The position numbers were made by a program, and so were the translations under genes. Under the pieces are notes generated by a model. It was not told the DNA's origin, did not search any database, and worked only from the letters and a program-made list of their open reading frames with translations. Shown piece by piece: positions 1,196 to 9,700 of a stretch of 64,000 nucleotides of DNA (positions within the stretch are counted from its first letter, which is position 1; each line of letters starts with the position of its first letter). This stretch comes from Sphaerisporangium rubeum (GTDB taxonomy: Bacteria; Actinomycetota; Actinomycetes; Streptosporangiales; Streptosporangiaceae): contig NZ_JACHIU010000001.1 in the NCBI RefSeq assembly GCF_014207705.1, positions 620,001 to 684,000 on the forward strand, given 5' to 3'.

Positions 1196-4100
1196 CTAGC
1201 TCGGAATCTCGATGTCAACGGCCTCTCGGCCCGTCACCTGATGTGACTCGGTACGGCTCAGGTTGGCCTTGACCAGGCGAGTGGTGGGGTGGCCGTGGCC
1301 ATGGACCGTGACAAGGCCTGACAACGCGGTGCGCTCACGCTCGATCGCCTCGTCCCACCGGCCTCGCGCGGCGAGGACGCCGGCGTGGTTGGCGGTGACG
1401 GCGAGATAGAAGGGGTGCAGGTCGCCGAGCCGAGCGAGCAGACCGTCCATGGCCCGGGTGCTGTGTGACTCGGCGTCGCCGAACTCGCCCAAGGCCGTCA
1501 GGTAGACCGCCAGGTTGGCGCGGCAGATGTGGGTGAACGGGTGGTCGTCTCCCATCAGGCCGCGGAACCGCCGCAGTGTCCGCGCCGCTCCCGCGGCGGC
1601 CTCAGGCCACATCCGCAGGACGTGACGGTCGGCGTTGGCGCTGACCTCGCCGGCCATGGTGAGGGGGTGCGAAGGGCCGAACTCCGCGTGCAGCTCGGCG
1701 AGAGTCTGGTCGTTACCCTGCAGGAGGCCGGTCGTGAGCCGGCCGAGCCGGCGTTCGGTGACGGCGAGCCCGAGGCGTGCCGTCAGGCGCTCCAACTCGG
1801 CCGGGGAGTCGAGCCAGCTCAGCCGCCGGACCGCTTGCCGCAGGAGGTTGCGCGCGTCCTCGAGCCGGCCGAGTTCGCGGTAGAAGTAAGCGATGTTGCA
1901 GGCCGTGTGCAAGGCGAATCGGTCGTTCTCTCCGAACAGCGACTTACGGCGCCTGACGCGGTCCGTCGCCACCCGCACCGCTTCTTCGAACTGGCCGATG
2001 TGTCCTGCGGCCCTGGCGAAGTTGTTCATCGCACGGCCCACCTCGGGGTGGTTGGCGCCGAACAGCTCACGCAGGCCCTGCAGCGTCCGTGCCGCCTGGT
2101 CGTAGGCGCCGGAGAAGTCCCCGGTCAGCCGTAGCCCCGCGGCGAGTATCGTCGTCGCCTCCAGGACCAGGGGATGCAGAGTGCCGTACGCACGGGTCAA
2201 GCCGGGAAGAGCGCGTTCGGCGTTCACGACGACGCCGTCACCCTCGCTGAGGCGCAGGTGCACCCGTGCCAGGATCACGAGCAGTTCTTCGTGCGCCGTG
2301 CTCCTGGCCGGCTGTCCGGCGCCGGCGTCCTGTGCCATGCCGTCCTGGTGAGTGGCGGGTACGGTGGGGCTCCAGGCGGATCTCGCTTCCTCGGCCAGGC
2401 GCCGGGCCCGGTGAACGGCGCTCACGTGCCCCACACTGAGCAGGAAACGGAGCTGGGTGAGCACCCACTGGCGCACCTCGGCGGGAGCTCCGGGGGTGAT
2501 CGCGCCACAGGTCGGCAGATGGCGGTCGAGTTCCGCCAGAAGGTCCCGGTCGCCGGTGGCCATGTCTTCCATGTAGCGCGGGGCCGACGCGGCGAGGACA
2601 GACGTGATCTCCAGCCGCCTGCGATCGAGCAGGCCGGCGCGGCTCAGGCGCGTGCGCACGGATTCCTGTACCACTCGGTGCATGCGCACCGGCTCGGCGG
2701 GAAGACCGAGTTCGGCGCGGATGAGTGCGTAGCGGTCCGTTTCCCGCAGTACCGCGTCGATCAGCGTGGGTGCCGACAGCCGTTGATCGACCTCGGCGAT
2801 CCGAGCGAGCATGGAGGTGGAACGCAGCAGGCCAGGACCGATGCCTTGAGGGGACAGGAACGCGCACGCCTCCACGAGCCATTCGCCGGCCCGACCCGCC
2901 ACACCCTCCTTCAGCTTCTGGACCGCCAGTTCGACCAGCACGTCGTACACGTCGGGCTGTTCGCCGTACCGGCGTCCCTGCCGGCGGGATTCCTCGCCGA
3001 ACTCCGTCACGAACCTTTCGGCGACCTCCTGCTCGTACTGTCCCCTCTGCCACACGCCGTCGCCGTCGGTGAGGTCGGTCTGGCGTGTCCGGCCCGATCC
3101 CTGCTCCAGAAGCTCGCGGCGGATCAAGGCTCCGGCCAGGCGGACCGCCAGAGGCTGCTTCTCGACGGTCGCGACGACCTTTTCCGCGTCCGGCTCACGG
3201 ATGCCTTTCACCAGGTCGCGCAGCAGGCCGATGGCGCCGTCACGGTCCATCTCCCTGACCGTCAACTGCCTGAACGGCTCCGGCCAGTCGTAGCCGCGGC
3301 CGGTGACCAGGACGTGACCGACGCCGCCTGAGCCCGGCGCCGGCGGTTTCACGGCCGCCGCCACCTGCTCGGCGGATCTGGCGTCGTCGCAGACCAACAG
3401 CCAGCGGGACACCTTGCCGGAAGCGAGGTGCGCGCGTACGGCGTCCACCGGATCGCCTTGCGCCGACAGAAGGAGGTGCTCGGCGAGGTCGACCAGTCCC
3501 GCTCTGATGGTGTCCTGATGGCCGGCGTCGAGCCACCAGACCACGTCGTAGGCTCCGCGGAAGAGTCTGGCGTACTCCAAGGCGGTCTTGGTCTTGCCCG
3601 CGCCACCTGGCCCGACCAGCGCGACGTGGCCGCTCGCGCCGGGGCTCAGCAGGTCGCGGATGTCCTCCAGCAGTGTGCCACGGCCGCGGAACTCGCTGTC
3701 GTCGCGCGGCAGTCGCTCCAGGCCGGGCCGGCTGCCGGGAAGGCGTTCGTCCTCGGACTTGCGCCGCACGGCAGGCCCGGCGCCGAGGACGGAAGGGACG
3801 GCCGCGAGAACTTCCTGGGGTGACTCGCCGAGTGCGACCACCTCGTGACCCGCCAGGTCGTCAGGCAGACGTTCGCCGTCCAGGCGGACGAGCAGCGCGC
3901 GGAGCGACCGTACGCGCCGGCGGGTCGCCTCCCCGAGCTCGGCCGGTTGGAGCGCCACCCAGCGGTGGCCCTGAGGTGGCGGCGTGCCTCCGAGGTCTTC
4001 CTCCCGCACCAGGGTGACGCCTATGCCATGGCGTGTGCCCTGTTCCGCGAACCACTCGGCCCAGTGCCGCCGGCGCGACGGGTAGACGATGGAGACGCGC

Positions 4101-4951
4101 CGGACGGGGAAGACGGTACCCCCAGTGATCGTGGTGACGAGCTGCTCGTAAGCGCCACGCAGCCCTTCCGCGCCGGGCCGGTCGTGCAGGACGGCGAGCT
4201 CTTCCGATACGGAGTACGCGGCGCAGTAGGGGATCTCCAGGAGGTCGTCCCCAAGGCCGGACGCCTGCGCCATGTGCCTGGCCTCAGCCAGTGGCAGGCC
4301 CGCACCCAGGTCGACACGCACCGCCAGTGGCAGGATCTGTGGTGTGGCGCCTCTCGCCGACTCGATCCAGCGCGCGGCCTCCTCGACCGCCTGCGGGCTC
4401 ATCGGGAAGCACAGGACGAGTTGGTCCGCGGCGGCCGACACCATCTCTCGCACGCCGGGTGCGTTCGCGGGTGCGTCCAGGAGGACCACGTCGTACGGCG
4501 ATCCCGTGAGCTCCGCGCGCAGTCGTGCGGCTTCCTCGACGGTGAACGTCTCCGGCGTTCGTCGCAGGAGCGCGACGCCGCCGGAGGCGTCGAGGCGCAG
4601 GGGTACCGGCCGACGGCCGGGCTCCTCGCCGGCTTCGCCGAGGTCATCGGGGAGCAGTTCGCGCAGATAGGAGAAGGGGCCAGGCGGTTCGGTCCCGAGG
4701 TCGACGATCAGCACCCGGCGGCCGGCGGCGGCGAGGATGAGTGCGACATTGCACAGCGTCGTCGACTTACCCACTCCCGTGCGAGCGCCGTAGAAAGCGA
4801 TCATGGCGATCGGCGGAATTGTGGGAGGAACCTTGCCCATCGCGCTCCGTTTCGGTATCGCCGGGCCTTGCGCCAGGCGTCTCGGGCCGCGAGGAATCGT
4901 CTCGTGCCGTCGCTTCCGGTCTGAAGTATAGAGGTTTCGCATGCCCGTCAA
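1196..4951 (-). CDS. FxSxx-COOH system P-loop / TIR-like / NB-ARC / tetratricopeptide repeat protein
   Basis: A large multidomain STAND-type protein (1251 aa from the TTG at 4951). In order it has: a ParA/SIMIBI-like P-loop domain (GARTGVGKST, residues 55-64, then LIVDLGTEPPG); a degenerate TIR-like segment (about 285-391); an NB-ARC NTPase with Walker A GPGGAGKT (447-454); and C-terminal TPRs from about 800. This order matches the tetratricopeptide protein that accompanies FxSxx-COOH peptides in actinomycetes, whose role is unknown but presumed to be signalling or immunity-like. The first ~37 residues are basic and unlike the family. The ATG at 4840 (MGKVPP), preceded by ACGGAG, is the more likely start, and an ATG at 4942 is also possible. 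It follows the precursor gene on the same strand. Confidence 0.85.
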   Translation of the reverse strand: MTGMRNLYTSDRKRRHETIPRGPRRLAQGPAIPKRSAMGKVPPTIPPIAMIAFYGARTGVGKSTTLCNVALILAAAGRRVLIVDLGTEPPGPFSYLRELLPDDLGEAGEEPGRRPVPLRLDASGGVALLRRTPETFTVEEAARLRAELTGSPYDVVLLDAPANAPGVREMVSAAADQLVLCFPMSPQAVEEAARWIESARGATPQILPLAVRVDLGAGLPLAEARHMAQASGLGDDLLEIPYCAAYSVSEELAVLHDRPGAEGLRGAYEQLVTTITGGTVFPVRRVSIVYPSRRRHWAEWFAEQGTRHGIGVTLVREEDLGGTPPPQGHRWVALQPAELGEATRRRVRSLRALLVRLDGERLPDDLAGHEVVALGESPQEVLAAVPSVLGAGPAVRRKSEDERLPGSRPGLERLPRDDSEFRGRGTLLEDIRDLLSPGASGHVALVGPGGAGKTKTALEYARLFRGAYDVVWWLDAGHQDTIRAGLVDLAEHLLLSAQGDPVDAVRAHLASGKVSRWLLVCDDARSAEQVAAAVKPPAPGSGGVGHVLVTGRGYDWPEPFRQLTVREMDRDGAIGLLRDLVKGIREPDAEKVVATVEKQPLAVRLAGALIRRELLEQGSGRTRQTDLTDGDGVWQRGQYEQEVAERFVTEFGEESRRQGRRYGEQPDVYDVLVELAVQKLKEGVAGRAGEWLVEACAFLSPQGIGPGLLRSTSMLARIAEVDQRLSAPTLIDAVLRETDRYALIRAELGLPAEPVRMHRVVQESVRTRLSRAGLLDRRRLEITSVLAASAPRYMEDMATGDRDLLAELDRHLPTCGAITPGAPAEVRQWVLTQLRFLLSVGHVSAVHRARRLAEEARSAWSPTVPATHQDGMAQDAGAGQPARSTAHEELLVILARVHLRLSEGDGVVVNAERALPGLTRAYGTLHPLVLEATTILAAGLRLTGDFSGAYDQAARTLQGLRELFGANHPEVGRAMNNFARAAGHIGQFEEAVRVATDRVRRRKSLFGENDRFALHTACNIAYFYRELGRLEDARNLLRQAVRRLSWLDSPAELERLTARLGLAVTERRLGRLTTGLLQGNDQTLAELHAEFGPSHPLTMAGEVSANADRHVLRMWPEAAAGAARTLRRFRGLMGDDHPFTHICRANLAVYLTALGEFGDAESHSTRAMDGLLARLGDLHPFYLAVTANHAGVLAARGRWDEAIERERTALSGLVTVHGHGHPTTRLVKANLSRTESHQVTGREAVDIEIPS

Positions 4952-4997: not shown

Positions 4998-5177
4998 TTA
5001 GGGGCCGTCCTGAAACCCGACCCAGAACGGGTCCGTTTCGCCGTTTCCCTCGATGAGCCTGTTCAGGGCCTTGGCCAGCACCGGAGAGGCGTGGACGCGC
5101 AAGCTCGTCAGGTCGGCCACCGATAACTTCGCGATGACTGCGACGAGGCCGTCGTGATCTTCCTCCATCTCACCCAT
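4998..5177 (-). CDS. FxSxx-COOH-family RiPP precursor peptide, FxDxx variant
   Basis: A 59-aa ORF read on the minus strand, starting MGEMEEDHDG and ending DPFWVGFQDGP. A GGGGGTGA ribosome site lies about 7-12 nt before the ATG. The middle carries the FxSxx-family leader pattern (LSVADLTSL, then PVLAKALNRLI), in which a short Leu-rich helix precedes a V-L-x-x-A-L-x-R helix. The peptide terminates F55-Q-D-G-P59, which equals F-x-S-x-x-COOH with Asp replacing Ser. It lies between the divergent maturase genes and the TPR gene, where the family precursor is expected. FxsB-type enzymes join an aromatic residue to the beta carbon of the third residue, and an Asp could serve as acceptor. That the peptide is the substrate is inferred from position and leader similarity. 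F51-W52-V53 is a second possible aromatic site. Confidence 0.8.
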   Translation of the reverse strand: MGEMEEDHDGLVAVIAKLSVADLTSLRVHASPVLAKALNRLIEGNGETDPFWVGFQDGP

Positions 5178-5279
5178 CCGTTTGTGTCACCCCCGCTCTG
5201 GCGCTCCGCGAGCTGTCATGAGAGCGTTATAGTTGTTCAAAACCCACCTCGGTGGTATGTATTGCCCTGACGGGCTACC

Positions 5280-5297
5280 GATGATACATATATCATC
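5280..5297. promoter_or_regulatory. Perfect palindrome in the divergent RiPP promoter region
   Basis: GATGATA-CATA-TATCATC, two perfect 7-bp arms around a 4-bp spacer, sits in an AT-rich 193-bp gap between the precursor (minus strand) and maturase (plus strand) genes. A TATAAC -10-like hexamer for the minus strand is at 5231-5226. The palindrome is probably an operator serving one or both promoters. No regulator gene is adjacent. Confidence 0.5.
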
Positions 5298-5370
5298 CTG
5301 GTTTATGATGATTTAATCGAAGTATGGGATCACGGGATGGATTGCGTCATACGCTCCTCTGGTCTCGGCG

Positions 5371-6618
5371 GTGTGGGTGGACGACGCGGGTAATCAGCGA
5401 AGCCCGTCCGCCGGTACCCGAGAATGGCCGGACGACCTCCAGGTCGATGCGATGCTTGCCTCTGGCTGGCATCCCGCGCCACTTCGGGAATTCGTCCTGA
5501 AAGTGCACAGCAGATGCGATCTCGCCTGCGACTACTGCTACGTGTACCGATTCGCGGACCAGCGCTGGAGGACCCAGCCGCGCACCATGACCTCCCACGT
5601 CGCGGAGCTCACCGCCGGCCGCATCGCCGAACACGTCCGCGATCACCGGCTCACCCGCATCCGTGTCATCCTGCACGGCGGTGAGCCGTTGCTGCGGACG
5701 CCGGACGACCTCGCCGCCGTCGTCACACGGGTGCGGCGTGCCGTCGGCCCGGCGGTCACGGTGGACGCGAGCGTCCAGACCAACGGTGTGCGCCTGTCGG
5801 AGGACTACCTGCGCGCGTTCGACCAGGCCGGCGTCAGGGTCGGGGTGAGCCTCGACGGCGACGCCGCGGACCACGACCGGCATCGCCGCGGGCCGGACGG
5901 CCGAGGCAGCCACGCCGCGGTCACCGCCGCGATACGCCTCCTGACCTCCCCGCGATATCGCCACCTGTTCGGCGGGCTCCTGTGCGTGATCGATCCGCGG
6001 ACCGATCCCGCCGGCGTCTACCGGAGCCTGTCGGACCTCGATCCCCCCATGATCGACTTCTTGCTTCCACACGGACACTGGTCGAGCCCGCCACCTGGCC
6101 GGGAGGCAGGCGACGCCGCGACGCCGTACGCCGACTGGCTGATCACGGTCTTCGACCTGTGGTATGGCGCTTCGGCACCACCTCCGCCGGTTCGGTTGCT
6201 GGAGAGCATCGTCCACACCCTCCTCGGTGGCGGGCCGGCCGTACAAGGCATCGGGCTCGGGCCCGTCCAGACCGTGGTGGTGGAGACCGACGGGACGATC
6301 GAGCAGGGTGACGTGCTGAAGACCTCCCGCGCGGGAACCACGCGGAGCACACTGAACGTGGCGTCCGCGGCGTTCGACCGTGTGCTGCTCAGCCCGCCGG
6401 TCGTCGCGCAGCAACTGGGGCCGCTCGCGCTCGCACCCGTCTGCCGCTCCTGCGATCTGCGCCGCACCTGCGGAGGAGGCCAGTACGCGCACCGTTACCG
6501 CGACGGCGCGGGCTTCGCCAATCCCTCGGTGTACTGCCCCGACCTGTACCGGCTGATCTCGCACATCAGGCGGCGGCTCCGTGACGACCTGACCGGCCGT
6601 GGAGGTGTCGCCGGATGA
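5371..6618 (+). CDS. fxsB: FxsB-family radical SAM/SPASM cyclophane-forming peptide maturase
   Basis: A radical SAM peptide maturase of 415 aa. It has the CxxxCxxC iron-sulfur motif (C49, C53, C56 in CDLACDYCYVY), the LHGGEP strand, and a C-terminal SPASM-type cluster with C358, C361, C367 and C389 (CRSC, RRTCGGG, YCPDL). Family members install an aromatic-to-beta-carbon crosslink in a three-residue motif at the C terminus of the precursor. The start is uncertain: GTG 5371 has no clear ribosome site, GTG 5377 is also possible, and ATG 5452 would still retain all clusters. The stop overlaps the next start (ATGA), so the HExxH protein is translationally coupled. The matching precursor is the divergent 59-aa gene at 4998-5177. 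Confidence 0.9.
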   Translation: MWVDDAGNQRSPSAGTREWPDDLQVDAMLASGWHPAPLREFVLKVHSRCDLACDYCYVYRFADQRWRTQPRTMTSHVAELTAGRIAEHVRDHRLTRIRVILHGGEPLLRTPDDLAAVVTRVRRAVGPAVTVDASVQTNGVRLSEDYLRAFDQAGVRVGVSLDGDAADHDRHRRGPDGRGSHAAVTAAIRLLTSPRYRHLFGGLLCVIDPRTDPAGVYRSLSDLDPPMIDFLLPHGHWSSPPPGREAGDAATPYADWLITVFDLWYGASAPPPPVRLLESIVHTLLGGGPAVQGIGLGPVQTVVVETDGTIEQGDVLKTSRAGTTRSTLNVASAAFDRVLLSPPVVAQQLGPLALAPVCRSCDLRRTCGGGQYAHRYRDGAGFANPSVYCPDLYRLISHIRRRLRDDLTGRGGVAG

Positions 6619-7916
6619 GTCCGCCGCCACACGTCCTTCCCGCCGGTGTGTTCGGCGCGCTGGCCCGTGGCGAAGGCGGCGCGGAAGGAGTGCGGCTGCT
6701 GGCGGCGGCCGAACGCAGCAAGCACCTGTTGCTGGTCAGGAGCGTCGCCGAGTCGTTCCGCGACGACGGACAGGGAGGCACGCGTGCCGCGGAGGCGTAC
6801 GCGCTGCTCGCCGACCTGTGCGCGGCGGTCCCGGCGGCGGCCGAGGAGGTGCTCAGCTATCCGTCGGTGGGACTGTGGGCCCTCACCACGCTCCGTGCCA
6901 TGCGGTCCGGGGATCACGACCGCATCCGGCCGGAACGCCTCGCGGCGCTGGCCCTCACGGTAGCGGCGCGTGCGGGGACCGATCTCGCGGCGACCGTCCG
7001 CACCGAACACGGCGGTCTCGGTTTCCCGTCCCTCGGCGGGTTGCGCCTGAGCGGCGCCGGTGACCGTGCGCCGCTCAAGGTCCGGGTGCGGGACGGCCAT
7101 CTGGAACTGGACGAGGGCCGGTGGGTGCGCCTGGTACCGGGTCACCTCGGATGGCGGCCGGTGCGCCGGCTGCGTCTCGGTCCGCCAGGAGGGCTCTGGG
7201 AGATCTGTCTCGACGACGTCGACGCGTACAGTTTCCCCCCGCACCCCTGTCCCAGGTTCGTCCTGCACCCTCCTGAGGTGCAGGCGTGGCGTCGTTCGCT
7301 CCAGGAGTCGGCCGAGGTGCTCTCCGCGCGGCACCCTGCCGCCGCCGAGGAGGTACGGGAGGTGGTGCGTGTGCTCACGCCGGTGCTGGCCTCGGGTGAC
7401 AGCCATGCCAGCGCGAGCGCGCAGGCCGCGTTCGGCTCGGTGGCGATGTCCCGGCCGGTCGGCGGCACACACACGGCGGTGATGTTGGTGCACGAGGCCC
7501 AGCACCAGAAGCTGAATGCGCTCATGACCATGTTCGACCTGGTTCGTCCCCTCCCGGACGACCAGAACGACCAGTACTACGCTCCCTGGCGCAGCGACCC
7601 CCGTCCGTTCATCGGCCTCTTCCACGGTGCCTACGCGCACCTCGGCGTCACGTCCTTCTGGCGCGCGGAGTGGCTGCACGGCACCGGCGGCGTTCCCGCC
7701 GCCGCCTTGTACGCACGCTGGCGGGACGTGACGCTCGAAGCCGTCGACCGGTCGCTCGGCACCGGCCGGTTCACCCGTCTCGGCCGGTCGTTCGCCGAGG
7801 AGATGCTGCGGGTCCTCGACGGCTGGCGGGACGAACGGGTGCCCGCGGACGCGCGGGAGTGGGCTCTGAGGGAGGCCCGGCGGCACCGTGCGCACTACGC
7901 GGCGCGGAACCGATGA
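6615..7916 (+). CDS. HExxH-motif (2-oxoglutarate-type) peptide beta-hydroxylase of FxSxx loci
   Basis: A 433-aa protein whose key motif is H293-E-A-Q-H297 within LVHEAQHQKL, the HExxH signature of the family found fused to or beside FxsB maturases. The family was long named only for this motif and has more recently been described as iron/2-oxoglutarate-dependent peptide beta-hydroxylases. Residues before the motif are predominantly helical. No signal peptide is visible. The start overlaps the maturase stop by four bases, so the two enzymes are probably made in fixed ratio and act on the same peptide. The residue hydroxylated here is unknown; the Asp of the FQDGP tail is one candidate. Confidence 0.85.
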   Translation: MSPPPHVLPAGVFGALARGEGGAEGVRLLAAAERSKHLLLVRSVAESFRDDGQGGTRAAEAYALLADLCAAVPAAAEEVLSYPSVGLWALTTLRAMRSGDHDRIRPERLAALALTVAARAGTDLAATVRTEHGGLGFPSLGGLRLSGAGDRAPLKVRVRDGHLELDEGRWVRLVPGHLGWRPVRRLRLGPPGGLWEICLDDVDAYSFPPHPCPRFVLHPPEVQAWRRSLQESAEVLSARHPAAAEEVREVVRVLTPVLASGDSHASASAQAAFGSVAMSRPVGGTHTAVMLVHEAQHQKLNALMTMFDLVRPLPDDQNDQYYAPWRSDPRPFIGLFHGAYAHLGVTSFWRAEWLHGTGGVPAAALYARWRDVTLEAVDRSLGTGRFTRLGRSFAEEMLRVLDGWRDERVPADAREWALREARRHRAHYAARNR

Positions 7917-8882: not shown

Positions 8883-8983
8883 GGGGATTTGTGGGTATAG
8901 CGGTTTTATGGTGTGATTTGTCGATCAGCCGACAGGGGTGTAGCTTCTCAGCGCCGTGAAGTTGTCAATCAAAGGCGTTGTCG

Positions 8984-9700
8984 GTGGTTGGTGCGCATAT
9001 TCCGGTCATGTGGCCTAAGGGCACCCTTATGGACAGGCTTAGTCCGGTGGAAAGGGAAGGGCTGCTCGGGCTGGCGCCGTCGTCCTCGCGGGGGGCCGGG
9101 GAGGTGCTGATCCATCAGGGGGATCAGGACAGGACCGATGTCTACCTGCTGCGATCGCTTCCTGGGGCCGATGTCACGGCTTGTGTGAAGGTCGTCGTTT
9201 ATCTGGAGTCGGGGGCGGAGGTGTTGTTGGGGATCCGGGTCGGCGGGGATGTCGTGGGGGAGTTGGCGGCGTTGCGGCGGACGCCTCGTTCGGCGATGGT
9301 GACGACTTGTAGCCCCATGTTGGTGCATGTCATACGTGCGCAGGTTTTCGTGGACTTTCTCGATCGGCATCCGGCGGTGTGGAACGCGGTGGCGCGGATG
9401 GTCGCGGACCGGCTCGAATGGGCCAATCGGCGGCGGATCGACTTCGCGCAACACAGTGTGCCGGTGCGGGTGGCGAAGGTGTTGCTGGAGATCGCGGAGC
9501 GGTACGGCGTGGAGCGGGCAGACGGGAGAAGAGATCTCGGGGTGGAACTCACGCATGCCGAGATCGCGAGCATGATCGGGGCCGGTAAGGACGCTGTTTT
9601 CAAGGCCATGCGCGGGCTCAAGGACGCGGGGCTCATCGACTCGGTGAAGCGGCGGAGGATCGTGCTCGATCAGTACGGACTGTCCGTATACCAGGCTTGA
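8984..9700 (+). CDS. Crp/Fnr-family transcriptional regulator
   Basis: A cyclic-nucleotide-binding regulator of about 238 aa. The N-terminal half is a cupin-like cNMP domain. Its phosphate-binding cassette reads GDVVGELAALRRTPRSAMV, retaining the Gly-Glu and Arg-Ser pair that contacts the cyclic phosphate in Crp. The C-terminal winged helix (VPVRVAKVLLEIAERYG, then LTHAEIASMIGAGKDAVFKAMRGLKDAGLI) carries the recognition helix. The start is taken as GTG 8984, eight nt after AAAGG; TTG 8978 is possible. The gene immediately precedes a class III cyclase-like gene on the same strand, so a cyclic nucleotide made by that protein is a plausible ligand. This link is inferred. Confidence 0.88.
   Translation: MVGAHIPVMWPKGTLMDRLSPVEREGLLGLAPSSSRGAGEVLIHQGDQDRTDVYLLRSLPGADVTACVKVVVYLESGAEVLLGIRVGGDVVGELAALRRTPRSAMVTTCSPMLVHVIRAQVFVDFLDRHPAVWNAVARMVADRLEWANRRRIDFAQHSVPVRVAKVLLEIAERYGVERADGRRDLGVELTHAEIASMIGAGKDAVFKAMRGLKDAGLIDSVKRRRIVLDQYGLSVYQA

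Follow-up and report, generated by a model that had tools for sequence, protein, structure and literature searches.

The 64,000-nucleotide stretch of Sphaerisporangium rubeum DNA analysed here (the window) carries a five-gene module that is split between the two strands. On the minus strand lie an unnamed 336-aa protein that we call P5 (164-1174), a large TPR protein (1196-4951) and a short precursor peptide gene (4998-5168); on the plus strand lie an FxsB radical SAM/SPASM maturase (5371-6618) and an aKG-HExxH-type peptide beta-hydroxylase (6615-7916). Three of the five proteins score above curated models of the FxSxx-COOH system. The maturase reaches 459 bits against TIGR04269 (cut-off 370), bearing out the preliminary description, which had placed a genuine FxsB next to the peptide; its CxxxCxxC motif and further C-terminal cysteines are conserved, and its nearest solved structure is the radical SAM domain of ChlB (9gm3, E = 4.7e-77). 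The hydroxylase scores 148.5 bits against TIGR04267 (cut-off 40), carries the HExxH motif as HEAQH, and has two solved relatives among the matches found, 22nu (E = 1.7e-44) and ChlH (8s5f, E = 4e-4). The TPR protein, with an N-terminal ParA/MinD-like domain and an NB-ARC region, is identified as the FxSxx-COOH partner by NF040586 (523 bits, cut-off 300); it scores 41.9 bits against NF047398, under the cut-off of 90, and in Pfam its TPR matches exceed the cut-off while NB-ARC, at 22.8 bits, falls just below 23.5. PADLOC returned weak rSAM, ATPase and NTPase matches only, for two of the five module proteins. The divergent intergenic region (5178-5370, unstranded) contains an inverted repeat, GATGATA-N4-TATCATC (5280-5297), which lies in the promoter region, has short arms and may be due to chance.

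The precursor lies in a minus-strand open reading frame of 59 aa at 4998-5177 that reads MGEMEEDHDGLVAVIAKLSVADLTSLRVHASPVLAKALNRLIEGNGETDPFWVGFQDGP. It sits between the TPR protein and FxsB, as had been described, on a strand that the preliminary description omitted, and is transcribed divergently from the FxsB and hydroxylase genes. Both the F-W-V-G-F tract and the F-Q-D-G-P end reported earlier are correct in the translation. The gene probably starts at the ATG at 5168 (56 aa), and less likely at 5177 (59 aa), because both close relatives align from the second methionine (Met4). The peptide terminates in WVGFQDGP, and this conserved core is encoded at 5001-5024 on the minus strand, as read from the codons; the predicted ring would run from Phe (5013-5015) to Asp (5007-5009) around a middle Gln (5010-5012) on the same strand.

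An ORF this short, overlapped by another ORF on the plus strand and lacking any NCBIfam match (E up to 1) or Pfam match (E up to 0.01), could in principle be a chance frame between two genes. We consider that reading scarcely credible: both nearest loci have a homologous ORF at the corresponding position, and "leave-out" profiles still recover the window ORF. The first such profile drew on 93 precursors of the FxSxx type; the three FxDxx peptides (the window's and its two close relatives') had been taken out, and the FQD-ending row of a further locus, L050, was kept. It recovered the window ORF at E = 1.7e-5 among 11,407 ORFs. With L050 removed too, the remaining 92 rows, now without any FxD peptide, recovered it at E = 5.7e-6 among the same 11,407 and the precursors of the two close relatives at 2.4e-11 and 3.6e-10; the first matches above 1e-3 sit at 0.014 and 0.018. 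The relatives' ORFs, the alignment and the 92-row profile together refute the chance-frame reading. Judged by this homology to precursors beside FxsB homologues, the gene is real and belongs with the FxSxx-COOH peptides, as the preliminary description had proposed.

The curated precursor model, TIGR04268, did not recover the window precursor in its own genome at E up to 1 (150 of the 561 candidates scored); lacking any NCBIfam match at E up to 1, the peptide stays under that model's cut-off. The same genome holds a second system, from 6,216,026 onward, in which FxsB and HExxH are fused into a single protein of 842 aa. Its precursor, which ends PVAGFTASI with Ala at the third core position, reaches 15.7 bits against the TIGR04268 cut-off of 28, so the model is narrow. 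The genome's second FxsB is accompanied by this precursor of its own.

The F-Q-D-G-P end is not a literal F-x-S-x-x-COOH terminus. We tabulated the core residues of precursors beside FxsB homologues. The alignment placed 103 of 107 rows, 96 of them unique, dropping one each of L052, L131, L209 and L210 (an earlier alignment on the aromatic column had placed 103 of 106). Of the 96, 84 have F as their first ring residue, 6 have H, 5 have W and 1 has Y. In the middle position stands Q in 31, D in 25, T and N in 10 each, S in 8, G in 4, M in 3, K and E in 2 each and L in 1. The third is S in 43, N in 30, A in 13, D in 4, Q and T in 2 each, and V and G in 1 each; the sample is biased toward relatives of the window FxsB, and misplaced columns could account for the rarest classes. 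The four precursors with Asp in third place are those of the window, L044, L045 and L050. Since only 43 of the 96 carry Ser there, the literal ending is no strict mark of membership, and the name "FxSxx" covers only part of the family, in which the third residue is mostly Ser, Asn or Ala and rarely Asp, Gln or Thr. Asp54 of the window precursor falls exactly in this Ser/Asn/Ala column, in agreement with the earlier proposal that Asp replaces Ser. Four loci from the window's genus (L047, L048, L049 and L052) share the window gene order and have an aberrant core, S-N/T-D-Y-x-E/R, without a clear FxS-like motif; L052 had no HExxH match.

When the window's own genome is set aside, the FxsBs that match best in 341 family genomes are those of Streptosporangium sp. 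KLBMP 9127 (NZ_JAKNTW010000007.1; 70% identical) and Nonomuraea thailandensis DSM 46694 (NZ_JAMZEB010000002.1; 65%), and the others among the matches listed are at most 61% identical. Both loci contain all five module genes in the same order, with the precursor again divergent from FxsB. The precursors end WVGHQDST and WVGFQDGS, respectively; FxDxx or HxDxx peptides therefore do lie beside the closest FxsB homologues, where the preliminary description had suggested looking for them. W49, V50, G51, Q53 and D54 are invariant in the three precursors and the predicted ring donor alternates between F and H. A CRP-like regulator gene lies near the window module (8978-9700, plus strand), and no homologue of it was detected in the examined stretches of the other two FxD loci.

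The variant is rare. A profile of the three precursors recovered only those three, its own training members, at E values from 4.3e-32 to 1.7e-30 in the 341 family genomes; weaker matches occurred in 37 other family genomes, the best at 1.3e-6. At E 1e-4 no further strong match appeared in 396 genomes of the phylum or 394 of the class; these draws share members with each other and with the family set, and up to 16 candidates were scored per genome. The two weak phylum matches fall within frames that are 446 and 477 aa long, and the three weak class matches end AGFQSAL, AGFQSSI and AGFQSNI. A widespread distribution of FxD peptides was rejected on these results. A separate FxD peptide occurs at L050 (genome G370), where a precursor at 3678-3947 on the minus strand ends AGFQD-COOH, with Asp as the last residue; it adjoins a same-strand FxsB. 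Because that FxsB lies outside the clade formed by the other three, Asp at the third position appears to have arisen twice.

Rarity raises the question of whether the locus is decaying or its core drifting, so that Asp is tolerated without being crosslinked and the peptide is left unmodified or only hydroxylated. The restriction of the peptide to 3 of 341 family genomes fits such an account, as does the single base that separates Asn from Asp codons. We nonetheless rate it improbable: the five genes are open and syntenic across three genera at 40-70% identity, the cluster cysteines of FxsB are kept, and F/H-Q-D is kept in all three precursors while most of the peptide has diverged.

In a FastTree phylogeny of 103 FxsB sequences, the three maturases associated with FxD or HxD precursors form one clade (support 0.999). 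It is nested in a group in which most precursors are transcribed divergently and the precursor ends vary (FQN, HQS, HNS, YQS, FDS, FES and the aberrant S-N/T-D-Y); as exceptions, L069 is same-strand inside this group and L073 is divergent and lies elsewhere in the tree. At twelve FxsB positions the trio shares a residue that is rare in the other sequences. Six of the changes add positive charge (E60R, S65R, N236H, E292Q, Y320R and A325R), two remove it (R263L and R347Q), and the remainder are L113D, M301T, V313G and T326S. The net change of +3 is the highest among 22 supported clades (range -5 to +3), by a small margin and in a set that includes the trio itself and some nested clades. ChlB likewise carries Arg at position 60. 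This charge shift is suggestive only, a lead and not a result.

Gene order and P5 together define a "divergent" five-gene subtype, to which the window locus belongs. P5 has no NCBIfam match (E up to 1) or Pfam match (E up to 0.01), and homologues are present in the other two FxD loci. Among the 85 of the 103 FxsB sequences that have an assigned precursor, P5 was detected at 11 of the 12 divergent loci, at none of the 47 "same-strand-far" loci and at 1 of the 26 "same-strand-near" loci (1 of 73 non-divergent loci); the census leaves out 14 FxsB sequences with no assigned precursor and the four of L147-L150, and its flanks are mostly 6-9 kb, some shorter, which makes absences softer than presences. 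At L073, the one divergent locus scored as lacking it, P5 does appear in a wider stretch of what is apparently the same locus (L216). A structure model of P5 from five sequences (pLDDT 80.2) has two similar halves. Foldseek matched it to MglB and Roadblock domains, mostly at probability 1.00, with E about 1e-3 to 2e-2 and target TM scores of 0.5-0.76 over about 115-150 columns; a match to Mon1-Ccz1 has E 1e-4 but a TM score of about 0.2. P5 is accordingly modelled as tandem roadblock/longin domains.

The reading that we favour, and hold to be on balance probable, is that, within this five-gene system, the precursor serves as substrate for the neighbouring FxsB. The enzyme would bind the precursor's helical leader and form a bond between the beta carbon of Asp54 and a carbon in the aromatic ring of Phe52, a residue that is His in one relative. 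The peptide would lose 2 Da and carry a three-residue F-Q-D cyclophane close to its C terminus. The HExxH enzyme would then probably beta-hydroxylate a ring residue, most likely the middle Gln53, and the product would presumably signal to, or be sensed by, the ParA/NB-ARC/TPR protein. We favour this reading because the three FxD or HxD precursors adjoin FxsBs of one clade in loci with the same five-gene synteny, because the three-precursor profile sets those peptides well apart from the next match, because an aromatic first residue with mostly Ser, Asn or Ala third is the rule in the 96 unique precursors, and because the donor swaps between F and H against a constant W, V, G, Q and D. Published ring types also point this way. 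We take MscB to be the FxsB-type member among the triceptide enzymes. PMC11002830 lists three-residue rings of Phe-Ser (MscB), Trp-Asn/Asp (OscB), Tyr-Asp (YxdB), His-Ala (HaaB) and Tyr/His-Arg (YhhB).

The same list bears on novelty. The preliminary description held that an aromatic-Asp cyclophane would be a new product type for this family, which overstates the case: the OscB and YxdB examples, from other cyclophane-forming rSAM enzymes, are in print (PMC11002830), and such a ring is not new as such. A Phe-Asp or His-Asp ring made by an FxsB does not figure in the passages of PMC11002830 consulted and would be a new variant for FxsB. The term "FxDxx" did not occur in the papers listed by our search, and we claim its absence from print no further than that. 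On the sequence evidence the window peptide is a genuine but rare precursor of the FxSxx triceptide type, an FxD/HxD variant of modest chemical novelty.

An alternative pairing would have FxsB link other residues, for example through Trp49 or from Phe52 to a different residue, leaving Asp54 without a ring partner as the site of HExxH hydroxylation. Trp49 is invariant in the three precursors, an aromatic three residues before the F/H position is present in 8 of 15 precursors with divergent orientation, in 6 of 71 on the same strand and in 10 of 17 without an assignment, and PMC12636437 reports Asp and His as residues hydroxylated by a fused rSAM-HExxH protein. We think this arrangement unlikely, given that Asp54 occupies exactly the family's Ser/Asn/Ala column, that the third residue of W-V-G offers no beta carbon, and that the reported HExxH activity depends on a preinstalled cyclophane (PMC12636437). 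The second ring that had been suggested for F-W-V-G-F was rejected as unlikely: its first F is not conserved, the relatives having R and Q there, and a W-V-G ring would have to use a beta carbon of glycine.

On the favoured reading, hydroxylation of the tail by the HExxH enzyme, as the preliminary description envisaged, is plausible, with the middle Gln as the better candidate. PflC and PosC are reported to hydroxylate Gln strings (PMC12636437), and 29 of the 31 Gln-middle precursors have an intact HExxH gene in the stretch examined, which is why Gln53 is proposed. The corresponding counts are 5 of 25 for Asp, 8 of 8 for Ser, 9 of 10 for Thr, 4 of 10 for Asn, 3 of 4 for Gly, 2 of 3 for Met, 1 of 2 each for Lys and Glu, and 1 of 1 for Leu; the "no HExxH" class includes false negatives (L077 ends at a contig end, and L063 was so scored despite an ORF with an HE..H string, by string only), and the association with Gln is confounded by phylogeny and limited flanks. 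The Ser- and Thr-middle rows show that Gln is not required; the middle Gln is still the more plausible target of the enzyme. Against the favoured reading as a whole, Asp54 could remain unmodified. We also entertain, more tentatively and as somewhat short of an even chance, a broader proposal: that this FxsB clade shifted from Ser/Asn to Asp with a Phe or His donor, making the family's first Phe-Asp and His-Asp rings, with Gln beta-hydroxylated and a tandem-roadblock protein of its own.

Compared with known FxSxx-COOH/FxsB systems and the MscB triceptides, the window module shares its enzymes, its TPR protein and a homologous precursor, and differs in the Asp at the third core position, in a precursor outside NCBIfam and in the divergent five-gene order with P5. 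The aromatic-to-Asp rings of OscB/GrrM and YxdB (PMC11002830) resemble the one predicted here, yet the window FxsB scores only 72.4 bits on the GrrM/OscB model against 459 on FxsB. ChlB and ChlH are fused, unlike the separate FxsB and HExxH genes of the window, and the likeness to them noted here concerns the enzymes. The "FxSxx" label understates the natural diversity of cores beside FxsB enzymes; the compact natural series FQD, HQD, FQN, HQS and FQS, with their related enzymes, offers a direct test of residue choice by a radical SAM cyclase, an Asp-bearing ring would add a carboxylate handle, and a distinct gene order is linked to a hitherto unnamed roadblock-like partner.

Standalone actinobacterial peptide-processing systems described in eLife 2020 (PMC7159879, section 24) combine FxSxx peptides, an HExxH protein, a radical SAM-SPASM protein and a TPR protein in which an AP-ATPase is fused to a MinD/ParA-like domain. 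Some include a CRP-like regulator, and the window, too, has such a gene nearby. The peptide types given in that section are FxSxx, RxD, acidic and FtsH, with no FxD type and no roadblock protein named. The HExxH protein is treated as a peptidase there and reported as a hydroxylase in the later PMC12636437. The ParA domain is called inactive in the same eLife section, whereas the Walker motif of the window TPR protein keeps its Lys (GVGKST). Of 31 loci, 8 gave a match to our search pattern for this motif, the window among them; in the 7 others that matched the residue is Arg (GVGRTT, GCGRSM and similar).
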